64,000 nt of DNA from positions 56,218,039 to 56,282,038 of the forward strand of contig OY997593.1 in NCBI GenBank assembly GCA_963921825.1, in the 5' to 3' direction. The stretch's first letter is position 1; each line of letters starts with the position of its first letter. The stretch comes from Erodium maritimum. Its lineage: Eukaryota; Streptophyta; Magnoliopsida; Geraniales; Geraniaceae. Below, in pieces: positions 4,479 to 53,802 of the stretch. Below the pieces are notes generated by a model. It was not told the origin of the DNA, made no database searches, and worked only from the letters and a program-made list of their open reading frames with translations. Position numbers and translations under genes: made by a program.

Positions 4479-7400
4479 TCAATGCCAGAACCTGGTGCAG
4501 AAGCCAGGTTGTGGCTGTGGCTGTGGATGGGGTTTATGTTCCGGGCAAATTTGATCAGCAAATGTATGGATGAGCTGCCCAGCCAGGCTGGGCGGATCAT
4601 CCATCATCGCATCCACAAATACACCAACCACCCTTCGCTCTTGCGCTGTCGCTTTCAAGCTGAACCATGTTAGAAACTTTACCCTGAAATCTTCATCTAT
4701 GTGCCCATCACGCTCCAACCATTTCACCATTCTCACACAGTGATCATAACCACTCTCATCCGCTTGCCTCTTGCACCCTGAACCAGCTATTCCTCGTGTT
4801 CCACTCACTTTACAAGGTGTGGGTGGAGAAACTGACCCGGGGCTTGCCAATGAAGCCGCTTCCATCAAAGGACTCGAGGAGAACTTATCATACTTGTTCT
4901 TCTTGATGGCATTCAATGAAAGCTGCTTCCCTAGCCGGTCTCCGGATGCTATCTTAATGTCACTAGAGTTGGTTGATTCAACCTGAGATAGAATTTGAAC
5001 AGTTGTGGTCTGGTCCACCATTCCATTCACTTCAGCAAAGCTTGTTGATGATGGCGTGACCCACTTTGCTTCTGAAACAGAAAAGGTGCCTGTGCTGCTA
5101 AATAAAGAGACCTTGCACATATACTGGGTTGAAGGGTTGAGATTGATTAGATTAAATCTCTTCTCTGTGCGCAAGACAATGAAAGTGGGTTTGTCTGGAT
5201 AGTCTTTCTCAGTAGACGTGCAATGCCAAACCCTGCAGCCCAGAAACTCTTTTAACAAATGATCTGCATAGTCCAGGACGATGGTGGTACATGTTGGGGA
5301 GCATTCTTCAAAACCAATCTTAATAGCTGCCAAAATAATTCAAGTATCAGAAGTTAGCATAAATCATAAAACAGATACAATCTACAGAGAATCAATTCAA
5401 GTGTAACGGTTCTAGTACACATCTAGATAAGAACTAATTAGAGTAACAAATAGGTGAAAACCAAAAGTTGCAGAAACCTAAAAACCATTTGTGTCCATTG
5501 GGTTACAGTTTTTAGGCTTAATTACCTTCTGCACCCCTTCTGAATTGGTAACACACCTTTAATACACATCTAGATAAGAACTAATTAGAGTAACAAATAG
5601 GTGAAAACCAAAAGTTGCAGAAACCTAAAAACCATTTGTGTCCATTGGGTTACAGTTTTTAGGCTTAATTACCTTCTGCACCCCTTCTAAATTGGTAACA
5701 CACCTTTAATACACATCTAGATAAGAACTAATTAGAGTAACAAATAGGTGAAAACCAAAAGTTGCAGAAACCTAAAAACCATTTGTGTCCATTGGGTTAC
5801 AGTTTTTAGGCTTAATTACCTTCTGCACCCCTTCTGAATTGGTAACACACCTTTAATACCCTTATGTTTAGTAACATTCAATAACAGTCCCCACGTTTCG
5901 GTAACCATCGTAGTAGTTTTTTTTATGAAATAACTGTTTTACCCAAACAAACAACAATTTTACCATTAAAATCAATTCTGACTAAATCTTCTTTTTTATT
6001 CTTTTTTTATATAATTTTCAGTATTTATTTTTTTTATAGTTTTTTATAAAATAAATTTTCTTTTTTATTAATCCTTCCTTTTTTAGTAATTACTTTTTAT
6101 TAATGCTTATTTTATTTATTTATTCCTTTTTCTACCTTTTTTTATCTTTTCTTTTTTTGAATTGGTAAGTTTTTAATTTTTAAACTTTTAAATTATTTCT
6201 GAATTTTATTATTTTATATTTATTATTATTTTCTATAATTTAATTTATTATTACAAGGGTAATTTCATCATTTAGCATTTATTTTTGAGAATTCTGTCAA
6301 TTTTAACAGAGCATTCTGGAATATTCCATCAATTTTAACAGAATATTCCAAAAATTACAACGCCTGGACTGTTTTAGAACGTTACAAAACAAAAGGGTAC
6401 TAAAGGTCTGTTACCAATTCAAAAGGGGTACAAAAGGTAATTAACCCTATTTTTTAATGGCTGAGATGTATCTGAAATTAAGTTTGGAAATTTAACTTTA
6501 CGTTGATAAGTTTGTAGTTCTGAAAGCTCAAACCTTAAAGTTTGGAAACATCTCAACCATAAAAATTGTATTCCAAAGGCTATGATTAGTATTCAATTTA
6601 ACAATCTTTGGTTTTCACCGCAGTTTTCCCCTACCTAACTAATCATGTCTTCAAAATTTAGGTGGAAAAATAAAACATACTTGATTGCAGGCCATTCTTC
6701 TCTACATCATAATGAGGAGCAGGGTCAGAAAACATGGCATCAAAAGCTTCGACTGCAGAGGCACAGAGTTTTTGAACCTCAGCACCACAAGAAAGCCTCT
6801 TAACAATGCCTCGCCCCATCTTTGTGTACACTTGGTCCAAAGGCCCCACCTCCTTCTTCAGTAGAGTTGCAGCTGTTTCTACTGTCTTTTGTAGTTCTTT
6901 GTAGTGCTCGGTTCCAATAAGAATCTTTTGACTCAAAGAGACTCGTAGACACAGCACATCCATTCTTCTGGCCTCCTTGGCAACCAAAACTTGTTTTCTC
7001 CAGATTCTGGAAAATCCAACTGTTCAATTAGCATTACTCATATCTTTTTCTTGGTTCTGAAAGCATGTTTAGCTTGTAATTAAGCTGAAAATGCTGTGTG
7101 AAGTATACACTTGAATTTAAGTTGACCCAAACCAACCTTCAGTTAATTTCAACCACAATGAAAATACCTACATAGCAGGGTTACTTACAACGAGAAAACG
7201 TATACTACATACTGAGTACCATTTTTATAGATAACGCGAGAGCCGATGTGCAACGTTAAGTGTACCATGACGATGCTATTATGTAAGTGCAAAGGCAGGT
7301 GATGAAAAAGTCCAGTGAGGAGCTGACAAGTGTAACAAAGAACGTATATAGCCCCAAAAATAGGACATCTATGATAGGCAACACATAGTGACTACATATT

Positions 7401-34600: not shown

Positions 34601-37600
34601 AAAGGAAAACAAAAAATGAAAGGTTTTAAATAGAAAACTGAAATGGAAGGAAAGAAAAATGTGCCAAAAAATTATTTGAAGTGATTAAGAAGATTGAAAG
34701 GACCCCCAGTTGCAAAACTTTTATCAGATAAGCTTCTTTATATGGATATAATTGAATTGATTATGCTTTTTTCTTTTTCAATTTGCACGCAATATATTTT
34801 ATCCCCTGAACAGGATCCTTGATGGGATGCATATGGATATAATTGAATTGGTTATGGCTTGTTTTTGGTATTAGCATGTAATATAGCGTATAACCAGACC
34901 TGGCTTCGTCAATGTATCACCATTGCAATAAAATGCTAGGCCGCCTGTCATTATTTGCTGCAGGGCACAACTTTCAGGGCCCTATTTATACTTGCCCGCC
35001 TAAATATTTATTTGGTTGAGATATGGTTACTGCTATATAGGAGCAATCCGTTGTCATCTAGTCCGGTCAGGATGCCTGGGTTTTACCCAGTTTTCCCGGG
35101 TTCAAATCCCGGCAACGGAATTGTTTCTTTCGTGGGTTAATTTTAACATTCTTGATGATTTGTGAACAGAAATGTAAGATATGGCATGATGGTAAATTTT
35201 CACGTGTTGCATATTGCTTTCCACGATACTCCACTGTGTTTTAGTTCTTCTAGTTACCATGGGTTTATTCTTGTATTTGTAGAGATGGGCGAGTATTCGT
35301 AAGAAAAACGGAAACTTTAATGTTGGAAGAGTGAAACCATTGTCTGTTCCACAACTATCTGAGGCACAGTTGGCAGCTCGTAATGCAATGAACCTTGCCC
35401 TCAATCCACGGGTTAAAAATATAACATCATCTTCCTCAATTGTTCCTGGTGATTTTCCACTCCATCTTCAATGTTCCTTGTTGAGTTAAATAAAGTTTAT
35501 AATTTGTCCTTTCTAATAATATTACCGATAATTGCATGTGCTTATAAAATGAGAGAAGATAATTGTTATCTTCAGTAGTACTTCAACAGCTGTAAGATTT
35601 ATTCCCCCTCTGCTCTTATGAAGACCCTCATTAAATATCTCAACATTTAGGGAAAAAACGATTCATATCTTGTCTACATTTTTGGGTAGTGGTAAAATGT
35701 TGATACTTGAGGTGATTTGTTGTTTCTCGTCAAAAGGTCTTTTGGCCAAAGTTCCTGGCGCAGCCGGTGACATGGCCGTTCAATTTTGGTCTTGCTCATG
35801 TGCGTAACTAGGTCGTGGGAATTTATGTTTACCTGTTTTATTTTGGAACAGTGTCATGATACTAGTAGTGTTTTGTATCGGTTAGATTTTTTAGATATGG
35901 TCTGATGAGTTGCTCTATCCTGACCAGACCTTGGATAATGAATAACTAGAAAAAAAAGTCTGAAAGTTCCAGATTTTGTGCTTTAGATGTTCTTATAAAT
36001 TGAAAGTAATGACTTTGTTATTAATTGATTTTATTTATGACCTATTATTATACGCACATGGTATGCACTTTTTGTTTGCAAAGTTTGAATTTGGAGCTCC
36101 TTGGATTTTCAATAACTGGGACAGGTGTAAATTCCACACCTGGCATTCCTGTGCGTCCTAAAGCTGAGATTAGCTCCATGCAAGCTGGACATCAATCTCA
36201 ACAAGGTTTGTTTGATTTTAAAGCTTCAATCCACCTGCTCCTTCTATGGTTATGAACCCTAAAAACTATGATGACTTTGTTATTGCCGTTTTTTCTCTGT
36301 AAACTAGTGGTATTCTACATATACGATTTGTGTCCTTTATACAAACTAGAATGTGTATCTCCTTCCATTTTTGGATTCTGTTTTTGGTTCACCCTTTCAA
36401 TGGTGTTTCTTGATGGACTAACTTCTCTTTTTAAGTTTTGAGTTCATTGTTATTCTCATTGTTTTTCTCTGTTTTAGTTTCCATCTTTGAAATGATTTAT
36501 ATGTGGTGTTACTCTCAATATTGTATTCTTTGCTGATAAAAAGGCATCAAGTGAATCTGTAGACCTGATGAATTGAGATATATGTGATAAGTGATAACAC
36601 TGTTACTGTATTTGGTTTAGTACTCCATCTAATATAATTTTCGTGCTTTGAGCAAAATTTGAATTTGTTTTTATAGCAACTGGGACAGGTTTAAATGCTA
36701 CATCCAGAAATCCTGCACCTTCCTAATCCTGATGTGAGCAGCTTGGTGCAAGCTGCACATCAGTTTCTCAACAAGGTTTCTAATCTGAATTCTTCCTTGG
36801 ATATTGTGCAGCTGGGACAGGTTTAAAAGCTGTTTCGAATAGCTCTGTGCGTCCTCCAAATATTGAGGCTGGTAGCTCTTTACAAGCTTCACATCAGTCT
36901 CAACAATGTCCCATCCCTTCAAAATCATCTCCAATGGGAACACTGGGTTTATCCCCAAAATCTCGGTTAATTGCTAAAATACCTTCAGCCAAGTCTATCT
37001 ACAATTCAGATTCTATGGTTATAGCTACCGCAGTTGCTGCTGGGGCCCGCATTGCCACACAATCAATTGCAGACTCAGTGATCAAAGCTGCTAAGAATGT
37101 TCATATTATGCCCACGGGTGGAGCAACTACGCATTTGCCAGGTCATCCTAATGTACATTATATCCGTACTGGCCGGGCAGCTATTCCACATCTCTTGCAT
37201 CCTTCTGGCATGACTAGTTCTCCATGCAGTGGACCAACAAGAATTTCCCCATCAACAATCCAGTGGTCTTCGTCCATTTCCTCCGCATTGCCAAATTTGT
37301 CATCTAGACAGACTAATGGTAGTATCCCATCAAGTCTAACTTCTGAATCTCCACTACATGATGTCAAAACTGTTGAAGAGAACAGAGTTCCTCAGATAGA
37401 TAATGCGCGAAAAGAGAAAGTCCAAGATGATGGTGCTAGTGTTGCTGACTCATCAAGCATCAGTGCGCCTAAAGAGCAAGTCCAAAAGGATTGTGCTTGT
37501 GTTGCAGATGCACCAATACAAAATGTGCCTAAAGAGCAAGTTCAGCAAGATGGTGGTTGTGCTGTAGACGCACCAAGCAATCAAGTTGAAGAAGACACAA

Positions 37601-45786: not shown

Positions 45787-47217
45787 AGAGATAATAACCA
45801 ACTTTTTTTTTTGACGAAATGCTTGAATTCATTAACTTAAATCTGAAGCCAGTAAACCCGGTATCGGGTCCGGCATACAATCAAGATCAAAAGAAGTAGA
45901 CGTCCATTCCCGGGCTTTATGAGCTATGGAATGAGCTACTTGGTTAGCTTCCCTGCGAACATAACTAACCCTGTAACCCTCTAAGCCCCTCAACAAGACC
46001 TTACAGTCCTCTATAATACTCCCCAGCGGGGTAAATAGTCTATCATCAGAATTTATTGCCAAAACCACTCCAAGGCAATCCGTCTCCACATCCCCTTCGT
46101 TCCATTCCCCCTGTAACAGCCATCGGAGAGCTTCCCGAACCACCATCGCCTCTATCAATTCCGATTCCTTTAACCCCGGAAATACAATACTCCTAGCTCC
46201 CAAAACCTCCCCTTCAGCTCCTAGGACTACAATACCGCCTCCTCCACCCCACCCTTCAAAAACAGCTCCATCAGCATTCAATTTCACACGGTTCAAAGCT
46301 GGTCGACGCCACTTCCTGTTCGAGTTCACTGACGTCGTCCCAACCTTCGAACTAATTGACTGCGCTTCCACCCACTCCTTCCACAAACCCATAGTCATCT
46401 GAAACAAAGCTTCTCCTGCAACTTTCTTTGACTGCCAAACCCTTTGATTTCTTGCACGCCAAAGAACCCAACAACCCATAACAATTTGTCCTATGAGCTC
46501 TGTATTCCCTGCAACTTTCTGCAATTCCAACCAATCCCTGAATGTGACATATTGACCCAAATTTACATCCGGTACCCTCCCCCAAAGTTCTCTAGCCACC
46601 GGACAGTCTATAAACACATGCTCCACACTCTCCAATTCACCACAATCAGTGCAATGGCCCTGTACTGGAACATAACGGGCTCTTAAGTTCATATTAGTTG
46701 GCAAATTACCTGAAACTCCTCTCCAAATCAGGTGGTGCACTTTGGGCGGGACTTGGAGCGCCCATACCCATTTCCAAAAAACATCCCGCTCCTCCTGTCT
46801 CCACATTCCTCTTCTAGCCTGGATCTCCCTGTAAGCCACTTTGACTGAATAAACACCATCTCTAATACCCTTCCAATACCACCCATCCTCCTCCATTGAT
46901 AGACTAAGAGGGACACTTAAAATTGCTTCAGCGTCTCTCTCAGAAAATATACTGCACACCAATTCTGAATTCCATCTCCTTTGACCCAATAGTATCAACC
47001 GGTTAATGGCCCAACCATCCACCACTTTCGGTTCATCCTGAATAAAACCCGAATCAGAGTTAACCCACGGGTTATTCAGGATATCCGAATTTCCAGTCCT
47101 CACTACCCTTCTGATTCCTCTCCGAACCACCTCCTGACCGGCCAATATACTTCTCCAGATTGGACTAACGGGTCCCCGCACTTCAGCATAAATGAACTCA
47201 GAGATAATAACCAACTT
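45787..47217 (-). mobile_element. 5'-truncated LINE with 18-bp target duplication
   Basis: agagataataaccaactt occurs at 45787-45804 and again at 47200-47217. The plus-strand T run at 45803-45813 is the poly-A tail of a minus-strand LINE whose body is 45805-47199. Long perfect duplications, a tail and 5' truncation are the signature of target-primed reverse transcription. The copy lies about 640 bases upstream of the gene at 43137-45145. Confidence 0.93.
45832..47199 (-). CDS. LINE ORF2 C-terminal fragment: zf-RVT and RNase H
   Basis: An uninterrupted frame of about 455 LINE codons. The N-terminal part is the end of the reverse transcriptase region. Next comes the zf-RVT segment with VFWKWVWALQVPPKVHHLIW and the CTDCGELESVEHVFIDCP zinc motif. 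A plant LINE RNase H domain follows, with LNADGAV, the glutamate region ESELIEAMVVREAL, and ETDCLGVV, ending in VRREANQVAHSIAHKA. Endonuclease and the reverse transcriptase catalytic core are absent through 5' truncation, so it is not autonomous. The open frame runs a few codons into host sequence at its start, so no true start codon exists. Lack of any stop indicates a recent insertion. Confidence 0.9.
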   Translation of the reverse strand, partial: EFIYAEVRGPVSPIWRSILAGQEVVRRGIRRVVRTGNSDILNNPWVNSDSGFIQDEPKVVDGWAINRLILLGQRRWNSELVCSIFSERDAEAILSVPLSLSMEEDGWYWKGIRDGVYSVKVAYREIQARRGMWRQEERDVFWKWVWALQVPPKVHHLIWRGVSGNLPTNMNLRARYVPVQGHCTDCGELESVEHVFIDCPVARELWGRVPDVNLGQYVTFRDWLELQKVAGNTELIGQIVMGCWVLWRARNQRVWQSKKVAGEALFQMTMGLWKEWVEAQSISSKVGTTSVNSNRKWRRPALNRVKLNADGAVFEGWGGGGGIVVLGAEGEVLGARSIVFPGLKESELIEAMVVREALRWLLQGEWNEGDVETDCLGVVLAINSDDRLFTPLGSIIEDCKVLLRGLEGYRVSYVRREANQVAHSIAHKAREWTSTSFDLDCMPDPIPGLLASDLS

Positions 47218-47499
47218 GTTACTTGTGAACCTTGAAAACACTGCACCTAATTAAAGCTGTATAGTCAAACAATTGCACCACATACATGAACCTGGTTTAA
47301 AAGTGGTACAATATTAGTTTTTGGATGGGTATTTACTTTTAATTCTTAAAATAATATTTGATATGTAATCAAGGTCGAACTTTTTTGTCTTAGTTTTAGA
47401 CCCAAATATTAATTAGTCATTTTAATCTAACTATTGTTTTTTACAATTTATTCTAACAAGCTCACGACACTGATTATCTAATCTCATGAAAGGGATAAC

Positions 47500-47718
47500 C
47501 GTTAGAATATAACTATAAATGGACCTTCAACTATCAGCTTAAGCTAGTTGAATTGGTCATCTAATATGGTATCATAGCTTAGCACCTCATGGACCCGGGT
47601 TCAAACCCCACTCTCTACAAAAATTTCTACCTTGTCTATGAGGGCGCGTGTTAGAATATAACTATAATTGGATCTTCAACTATCAGCATACGCTTTTAGT
47701 TAAGTTGGTCCTCTAATA
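47500..47718 (+). mobile_element. Miniature LTR retrotransposon (TRIM/SMART type), 219 bp
   Basis: Terminal direct repeats 47500-47566 and 47649-47718 (67 and 70 bp) share gttagaatataactataa and cttcaactatcagc. Right after the left repeat, tggtatcatagc matches the initiator-Met tRNA primer site TGGTATCAGAGC with one mismatch. A purine-rich gagggcg precedes the right repeat. Exact 5-bp duplications ataac lie at 47495-47499 and 47719-47723. The ends are CG...TA rather than TG...CA, by single-base decay at each end. The internal part is 82 bp and noncoding. Confidence 0.85.
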
Positions 47719-48099
47719 ATAACTACCTCACTTTTGATCACGGGAAAAATGATCTATGCTGAGTTGTGTGCAAACTCTTCTTAGTCGGGACATAACCTGA
47801 ACTACAGTGTTACCTAACAAAACTAAGAAGAACAAATATGCTCCAATAAGGCATTGGGTCGGGAAGCTTGTTACGTGTAGAGAAGCTAGTTTGCATGCAA
47901 ATACTCATCAAACCATTGAGACGAGGTTGCACATTGCGAACTTGAATACTCCCTGACTTTCAAGGTACGCGACCTTATACTCAAACTCAATACCGACCGT
48001 GGAGAGCGCTTTAGTCCACAACTTAATGACCTTTGATTAGCGTAGCTGGGATTATGGTGAGGACATTTTTTAGGTGCGTGATCTAATTCAGCAAGATTC

Positions 48100-51000
48100 T
48101 TTGAGCCTCATGACGGGTGATGATATATGGGCTTGGAGTAATGAGATGATAGGTTTCCTTTCTAGATGATGTTTAACGAATGCTTGTAGATAGCTGATTT
48201 GATTAAAGAAGGGAGTTCAAATGAAGACAAGTATAGAGAGTTCTAGCCCCCCAAAAATTCCAGATGCTCCTGCAGCGAGTAATGGCCAAGGTATGTTCGA
48301 TCCAACTTGGCGAACAGGAGCATCTATTCCAAAAGGAAACCCGCAAAAAGTAAGGGCCCGCGAACAAACAATTTCAAAAAGAAACAACTTGATTTTATTT
48401 CAATGAAATCAGTTAGTGGAAAAGAAAATACAAAAGTACTTGAATGATCAGAAGAAAGAATAAAGGTAATATGATTCTCCTTTTAGGTATTCATGTTATA
48501 GAAATCAGTTTATTTATTTTCTATTTTTGGATATTATATCTGAATCTCACATTCGTACGAATGTGTAGGGAAAGAAAAATAGCTCATTGACGCAATACGA
48601 AGTAGGCTTACGAGTTGGGGATGACCATTAGTGTTATTTCTTTATCCATAGGAACATATGAATTAATTCTACCTGACGGATTTTGTTTAGAGTTGAATAA
48701 TTGTTATCATGTACCTACTTTTCGTACAAATATCATTTCTACTTCATGTTTGGACGTGGAAGAGTTTGAGTTTGTTATTAACAATAATAAATGCGATATT
48801 TACCATGATTACATGTATTATACAACTACTTCACGAGTTAGAGGTCTCTACATTTTGAACATAAAAAACGCTAACGAAAGGTCTCTCTATAAACATCAAT
48901 ACTAAAAAAATTAAGTCTAGGGACTCGAACCTCACCTATCTCTGGAATTTTCATTTAGGGCACATAAACGGGAAACACATATCAAAACTCCAACACATTG
49001 TGCTTTTGAGTTCTTTGATTGTGAATAACTCAAAACATGTGAATCTTGTTTGATGAGCAAAATGACGAAGACAACTTTTCAAATTAGGTGAACGAGCTAG
49101 TGGCTTACTAGGCCTTATACACTAAAATGTATGTGGTTCTTTAAGCACAATTTCTAGAGGAGGATTTATGTACTTTATTACATTCACTAATGACTTTAGT
49201 AGATATGATTATGTCTATCTAATAAAACATAAATCCAGATCTTTTGAAAAGTTCAAAATTTTCAAGAATGAAGTGCAGTTACAATTGGTCAACCTATTAA
49301 AGCACCTCGATCTGATCAAGGTGGTGAATACTTGAGCCAAGAATTCAAATATCATCTAGGAGATTGAGGGATCATTTCTCAACAAACTTCTCTGTAAACA
49401 CCACCACGGAATGACGTGTCTGAACGGAGAATCAAACCTTATTATATATGGTTCGATCCATGATGACTAACAGTGATCTCCCAATCTCATTTTGGGGTTA
49501 TACTCTAGAAATAGCTGCATTTATCTTGAACAGAATTGCATAAAAAGAAGTGGAAAAGAGACCATATAAGATATGGACTTGAAGAAGTCACAATTTGTCT
49601 TTTCTTAAGATTTGGGTTTGTGAAACTTATGTGAAGCGTCTGATTTCAGATAAGCTAGCACCCAAATCAGAAAAGGGAATCTTTGTGGGGTATCACAAAG
49701 AAACTAAAGGATATTACGTGTATAATGATAAAGAGAACAATGTGTTTGTTGCTCAAGATGATGCCTTTCGAAAAGAGAGTTCATTTCCAAAAGAACCACT
49801 GGGAGAACAATTGAACTTGAAGAAATTTGAGATCCACAAGATCTTAGCACTTGAAGTTATACCCAATATAGAAATCAACAAGAAAATTTAGCACTTGAAG
49901 TTATACCACAAGAACAGAGAAGGTATGATAGGACACGTAACACTCTTGTAAGATATGGGTTCCTCGTCTTTAACGATAATGACATGATAATTGTGGAACA
50001 AGATGAGACCATATCCCATCAAAAGGCCATTAATGGTCATGAATCTGAAAAATGGTTAGAGGTCATAAAGTTAGAAATGAAATCTATGTATGAAAATCAA
50101 GTTTGGAGTTTGATTGAACCAATAGATGGTATGAAAACATTTGGGTTCAAATAGGTCTTCCAGAAGAAGATCTATACGGATGTCAATGTGCATACCTACA
50201 AAGTAAGACATACTACAAAAGGTGTTAAAAACTCATGGAATAGACAATGATGAAACTTTTTTACTAGTAGCAATGATTAAATCCGTTAGGATTCTCCTTA
50301 CCATATCCGCATATTACAACTATGAAATATATATAAAAAAAAAAGATGTCAAAACGGCGTACTTTTACATAAACTTACTTGAGGATGTGCATATGACACA
50401 CCTGAAGGTTTCGTCGATTATTGGAACACTAGAAAGGTATGCAAACTTCAAAGGTCCATTTATGGATTGAATTAAGCTTCTCGTAGTTAGACACTTTGCT
50501 TTGATGAAACGTTCAAAGAGTTTGACTTCATCAAAAATGAAGAGGAACCTTTTGTATACCAAAAGGTTAGCGGGAGTGCGATAACTTTCCTAGTATTGTA
50601 TGGAGATGATATACTACTAATTAGAAACGACATCCCTAGCTTGCTAAGTGTGAAAACATGGTTATGGAATTGTTTCTCAATGAAATACTTAGGCGAAATT
50701 GCTTATATATTATGTATCAAGATTTATATAGGTAGATCCAGAAAACTCATTGGTCAAAGTTAGAGGACTTACATTGATTAGGTGATAAACAAGTTTAGTA
50801 TGCAAGAATCTAATAGAATTTTCTTGTCAATGTCACGTGTCATTAGTCATTGGATGAGCGAGACCACATAAGTAATATTTCATATCTTTCGGCTATTAGA
50901 TCTATCATGTACATTATGTTGTGTACTCAACCTGATGTCTCTATACCCGGAGTGCAACGAGTAGATACCAGTCAAACTCAGGTGAACGTCACTGGATGAC

Positions 51001-53586: not shown

Positions 53587-53802
53587 GGATTAATTGCTAA
53601 AAGCTACATTATGTATTGTCTACTTGCGAAAAGTTACAAAAAAAATTACATTATATATTGTCCACGTGCGAAAAACTACGTTATATATTGTCCACGTCCC
53701 TAATTTTAGTAGAACATTCCAAAATTTTATCGGAATATTCCAAAAAAAAATAACCATTATCAAAAGATAGTAGTACATAATATAGTTTTTGACAATTAAC
53801 CC
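53587..53802. mobile_element. Fold-back miniature element, same family as 188-447
   Basis: Left ggattaattgctaaaagcta and right tttttgacaattaaccc are inverse. Internal units tacattatgtattgtctac / tatattgtccacgtgcgaaa match the element at 188-447. No clear 9-bp duplication remains. Confidence 0.65.

Follow-up and report, generated by a model that had tools for sequence, protein, structure and literature searches.

A 219-bp LTR retrotransposon copy in Erodium maritimum is an ordinary, internally deleted member of a TRIM/SMART-type family

The small element at positions 47500-47718 of the window, by which we mean the whole 64,000-nucleotide stretch of Erodium maritimum DNA analyzed here, is an ordinary TRIM/SMART-type LTR retrotransposon with a private internal deletion, and it does not set a new record size. 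We are confident that it is an old copy of an abundant family of ~329-bp elements that inserted at ATAAC and from which ~107 bp of internal sequence have been lost. The TRIM/SMART criteria applied here are those in the available text of PMC4717578; the window copy at 219 bp and the family at ~329 bp both fall below 1,500 bp and both have two LTRs.

The window copy lies on the forward strand between two identical ATAAC pentamers at 47495-47499 and 47719-47723 (no strand assigned). Its 5' LTR (47500-47566, 67 bp) begins with a private C in place of the family T and has lost 3 bp compared with the 70 bp usual in the family, and its 3' LTR (47649-47718, 70 bp, TGTTA...TAATA) has the standard ends of the family. 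Between them, the 82-bp internal region (47567-47648) consists of the primer binding site TGGTATCATAGC directly at the LTR end (47567-47578), a retained 5' part (47579-47629), the junction of the private ~107-bp deletion (47629/47630, with a 1-base ambiguity), and a retained 3' end containing the weak purine tract TATGAGGGCGCG (47630-47648). The two terminal repeats of 67 and 70 bp, the Met-tRNA-type primer site, and the exact 5-bp duplication that a preliminary description had read from the letters are all borne out at these positions. The purine tract claimed there holds up only in part, as a short GAGGG stretch inside TATGAGGGCGCG does precede the 3' LTR but is weak. Since a match to TGGTATCANAGC with at most one mismatch is expected by chance about once per window, the primer site carries weight only through its position at the LTR end. 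The LTR pair has in common an ungapped block of 45 nt at 91% identity, and alignment over 67 sites gives 8 differences plus the 3-bp gap, corresponding to K ~0.13. No open reading frame of at least 100 codons overlaps the window copy, and internal regions of 82-190 bp leave no room for a retrotransposon protein.

The family was searched in the 763-Mb genome, whose 40 contigs include nine large ones of 62.6 to 158.6 Mb. A first search produced 2242 first-look candidates, 40 of which were scored. With at most one mismatch, a 22-nt pattern from the LTR start has 2129 copies genome-wide and a 25-nt pattern spanning the junction of internal region and 3' LTR has 893, while reversed-pattern controls returned 0 in both cases. 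The copy search proposed in the preliminary description thus recovers an abundant, dispersed family, represented by the 893 junctions. LTR starts outnumber junctions by a ratio of 2.4. Solo LTRs in modest numbers would fit this ratio but are not proven by it, given that the junction pattern is the longer of the two. Three sets of loci were used to describe the family: a first set of 61 loci, for which the query was all or part of the window copy and which is accordingly biased towards that copy; a junction sample of 40 loci picked solely by the 25-nt junction; and a second sample of 30 loci of a second pattern.

In the junction sample, a 5' LTR was found no more than 600 bp away at 34 of the 40 loci, with internal lengths of 185-195 bp in 26 of these 34 and below 100 bp in only one. 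A typical copy consists of 70-bp LTRs and an internal region of ~189 bp, for a total of ~329 bp. The commonest form of the primer site is TGGTATCAGAGC, exact in 17/34 copies. The commonest form of the purine tract is CGTGAGGGCGCG, which itself includes only GAGGG and is present as an exact 12-mer in 13/34 copies, a count in which the last three bases belonged to the pattern by which the loci were selected. Among 26 full-size copies, the primer site is the best conserved of the regions compared (mean pairwise identity 0.950), with values of 0.77-0.86 for the LTRs and the other internal parts. Five of the six junction loci without an upstream 5' LTR are degraded or interrupted versions of the same small element, and the sixth (L116) is unrelated sequence; no autonomous partner was found among these six, and no frames above 80 codons were reported in the 600 bp upstream of their junctions.

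Some loci show multimeric arrangements. Tandem arrays with common LTRs (LTR-internal-LTR-internal-LTR) are present at L015, L027, L028, and L031. At L020 (G000:C8:48717689-48719539), two full elements stand head to tail with LTRs that abut exactly (TAATA|TGTTA) and with a single outer duplication, gtaat; this looks like an integrated two-LTR-junction dimer and not the usual shared-LTR tandem.

Target site duplications identify the copies as products of transposition. In the junction sample, after 20 of the 34 copies with a 5' LTR had been left out as partial or tandem, exact 5-bp duplications flank 11 of the 14 intact non-tandem copies and a match of at least 4/5 flanks 12/14, against 0/182 exact and 6/182 at 4/5 or better in mismatched flank pairs. 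In the second sample, where 6 of the 30 loci lacked an LTR pair and 7 of the remaining 24 were excluded as partial or tandem, the corresponding values are 10/17 and 15/17, against 0/272 and 5/272. The duplications differ in sequence between copies in both samples, several further copies of the first set also have exact ones, and a duplication of at least 4/5 is absent in 2/14 and 2/17 of the intact copies. Because exact duplications are frequent in the true pairs and absent in the mismatched ones, the family copies are independent integrations, and the window copy can be considered a genuine retrotransposon insertion on this basis. The original proposal of a TRIM/SMART-type element inserted with a 5-bp duplication is well supported by these counts. 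The observation named beforehand as counting against it was a lack of other copies with independent target duplications, and many such copies were found.

This evidence also leaves practically no room for an explanation of the window copy as a chance or tandem-duplication repeat having nothing to do with retrotransposition. Such an explanation could appeal to the weakness of the purine tract and to the other short-range repeats of the window, in which 14 pairs of complex exact 17-mers recur within 400 bp, several of them in tandem arrays and the LTR pair of the window copy being only one of the 14. Such pairs are nevertheless not what chance predicts, as 30 order-1 Markov windows gave 0. A dispersed family with independent duplications, and 2129 LTR starts against none for the reversed patterns, already refute it.

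The ends of the LTRs are noncanonical. The filter for intact copies favors LTRs ending in TA, and end frequencies were therefore taken from the 24 unfiltered pairs of the second sample; with unaligned ends extrapolated to 70 bp, TG..TA ends are found in 20/24 5' LTRs and 21/24 3' LTRs. TG...CA ends, which are usual but not defining for LTR retrotransposons, are not the norm in this family. Since the family ends in ...TAATA, the 3' end of the window copy is normal and only its 5' T-to-C change is private, so of the two outermost bases initially thought to be mutated, the first is and the last is not. TGTA is among the entries of the motif library of LTR_retriever in the portion of PMC8220671 available, and TG..TA ends are therefore no bar to membership among LTR retrotransposons. 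This library entry also weakens the expectation that tools requiring TG...CA would miss the window copy, although a tool insisting on TG would still fail at its private 5' CG. A few family LTRs (L029, L031, L080, and L127) end in TTACA instead of TAATA and possibly constitute a TG..CA subfamily; L029 is flanked by the exact duplication ggatg.

The short length of the window copy is its own. Relative to its closest full-size copy, L008, it lacks ~107 bp corresponding to internal positions 64-170, and a genome-wide search allowing up to 3 mismatches finds its deletion junction a single time. A strict pattern (reversed controls 0) found 246 copies with the 115-145 base gap of full-size elements and 3 with a gap of 5-35 bases, the window copy included. 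The first set contains ten short units, again including the window copy, with ten different pairs of breakpoints, measured for each against its closest full-size copy and accurate to a few bases between units; the nine others came from searches biased towards short copies. The left edge of the deletion falls close to an A-run, at internal positions 54-64, in 8 of the 10, a clustering to which the query may contribute since it favors copies that keep this internal part. The uniqueness of the junction, the differing breakpoints, and the predominance of full-size copies lead us to attribute the 219-bp size to a private deletion. Several copies with the same short structure, as a 219-bp family or subfamily would have, were not found. 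The preliminary description of a "complete" element with 219 bp as its proper length must accordingly be given up, as the family unit is ~329 bp long. Of 15 full-size copies folded, 14 gave less than 1 expected pair of the RNA pairing that would join the deletion edges and L096 gave 7.25; for this reason we do not claim a template-folding mechanism for the deletion.

An important question is whether the ~220-bp form was itself mobilized, which would make it a distinct minimal element smaller than a known TRIM of 233 bp. Short copies do occur at several places, and three have duplications of their own, exact at the window copy and at L002 (225 bp) and 4/5 at L005 (218 bp). These duplications show or suggest insertion, but not movement in the short form. 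Against such mobilization, no two of the ten short units agree in their breakpoints, the flanks of L010 (208 bp) and L012 (230 bp) match at only 3/5, and short copies number 3 versus 246 under the strict pattern. With a single genome-wide occurrence at up to 3 mismatches, the idea is largely refuted for the window junction within this genome, and we regard it as improbable overall. A different suggestion, which is unlikely, is that the 208-230 bp forms are one-off products of reverse transcription and not of decay, RNAs without the stretch from the A-run (54-64) to the 3' end having been packaged, primed, and integrated. The duplications at L002 and L005 also fit the mobilization of already shortened RNAs, and in this respect they count against our preferred explanation, a loss of internal sequence from an ordinary family copy.

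A tRNA-derived, Helenus-like small element promoted by Pol III was considered because of GGGTTCAAACCCC, an internal motif near the primer site, which is exact in 14 of 18 aligned units and which we take to resemble a tRNA T-arm or B box. The internal stretch containing it (positions 13-57) is conserved at 0.798, which is no better than the middle of the internal region (0.809) and well below the primer site (0.950). Rfam gave no tRNA match over the window copy at either gathering or relaxed thresholds, and ARAGORN found no tRNA in the 10 loci examined out of 134 related ones. Helenus, in the description accessible in PMC10886601, is a TRIM with a tRNA-like sequence in its LTR, and the one plant family reported, Helenus-1_SMo, combines 5-bp duplications with an internal region of 85 bp. 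The motif here is instead internal, and no tRNA-like sequence was detected in the window family, so that membership in Helenus was rejected given the Rfam and ARAGORN results and a tRNA-derived origin appears highly improbable.

The window family resembles several described elements. SMART, or FRetro129, of grasses is noncoding and 292 bp long, with 85-bp LTRs, a 122-bp internal region, and 5-bp duplications; it ends in TGT...ACA, no homologs were found outside grasses, and FRetro64 is its putative autonomous partner, with the primer site and purine tract in common (PMC3281118, as excerpted). It has been deemed likely to be mobilized by Copia elements (PMC10886601, in part). The window family, apparently noncoding as well, is likewise very small and has 5-bp duplications, but it differs from FRetro129 in its TG...TA ends, 70-bp LTRs, and internal region of ~189 bp. 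The available text of PMC4717578 reports 156 TRIM families from 43 plant genomes, including tandemly arrayed TRIMs, and proposes that TRIMs originate by internal deletion of larger elements; the window family is like these in size class, apparent absence of coding capacity, and tandem arrays of the L3I2 type. The smallest TRIM reported there is CcaRetroS9 of pigeon pea, with 233 bp, 52-bp LTRs, and 10 complete copies. Those 233 bp describe a family and the 219 bp found here a single deleted copy, and the window copy is smaller only because it is internally deleted. Among the literature matches listed for the sequence strings of the element, only the general primer-site string occurs.

That string, TGGTATCAGAGC, is complementary to tRNA-Met in published Copia elements (PMC3852365, in the portion available), a complementarity taken from this source and not from the host's own tRNA gene. 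In the same source, Jatropha lineage III, assigned to Ale, has the tract GAGGGGGAG and a primer site that follows the LTR without a gap. The Jatropha Copia Ale elements Jc8 and Jc9 are like the window family in having TGGTATCAGAGC directly after a short LTR, and their GAGGGGGAG resembles GAGGGCGCG of the window family. They differ in being autonomous, ~5 kb long, and equipped with LTRs of 161-210 bp; the likeness is one of anatomy. We therefore expect that family RNA would be transcribed, that reverse transcription would be primed by Met-tRNA, and that an autonomous Copia-type element would supply in trans the proteins for integration. For this helper the Ale lineage is the best guess, given the primer site that adjoins its LTR and the likeness of its purine tract.

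For the window copy, the duplication and the family show insertion at ATAAC, and the loss of ~107 bp from its internal region reduced it to 219 bp; this loss more probably followed the insertion than preceded it. Subsequent aging would account for the 8/67 differences between its LTRs, and K ~0.13 lies towards the older end of the values for intact copies, which run from 0 to 0.20. Common plant substitution rates are ~7e-9 to 1.3e-8 per site per year. With these rates the insertion dates to roughly 5-9 million years ago, an estimate whose error is wide, as the comparison covers only 67 sites.

The window contains other features of interest. An open frame of 472 codons on the minus strand (45832-47250) encodes zf-RVT and RVT_3 (RNase H-like) domains and is probably a LINE remnant or a LINE-derived gene; the window copy lies ~250 bp beyond its upstream end. 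Some 1.9 kb after the window copy, at 49583-49891 (+), an open-frame fragment with a retroviral-polymerase SH3-like domain is probably a Copia remnant. A 147-bp unit at 5416-5859 is present in three tandem copies that are 99% alike and hence recent. A 30-bp unit with AAAAACTACATTAT occurs as tandem copies at 195-254 and 53641-53697 and in inverted orientation at 347-440; such units are possibly the subterminal repeats of a DNA transposon. A tRNA-Lys (ttt) gene is found at 35047-35120 (+).

By itself the single copy in the window matters little, and it cautions against taking one deleted copy for an element of record size. If the short forms were one-off products of reverse transcription, ~80 bp of internal sequence together with 70-bp LTRs would suffice for mobility. 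The family to which the copy belongs is large and well behaved and has noncanonical TG..TA ends, and its natural deletion copies could help to map the internal sequences that such elements require.
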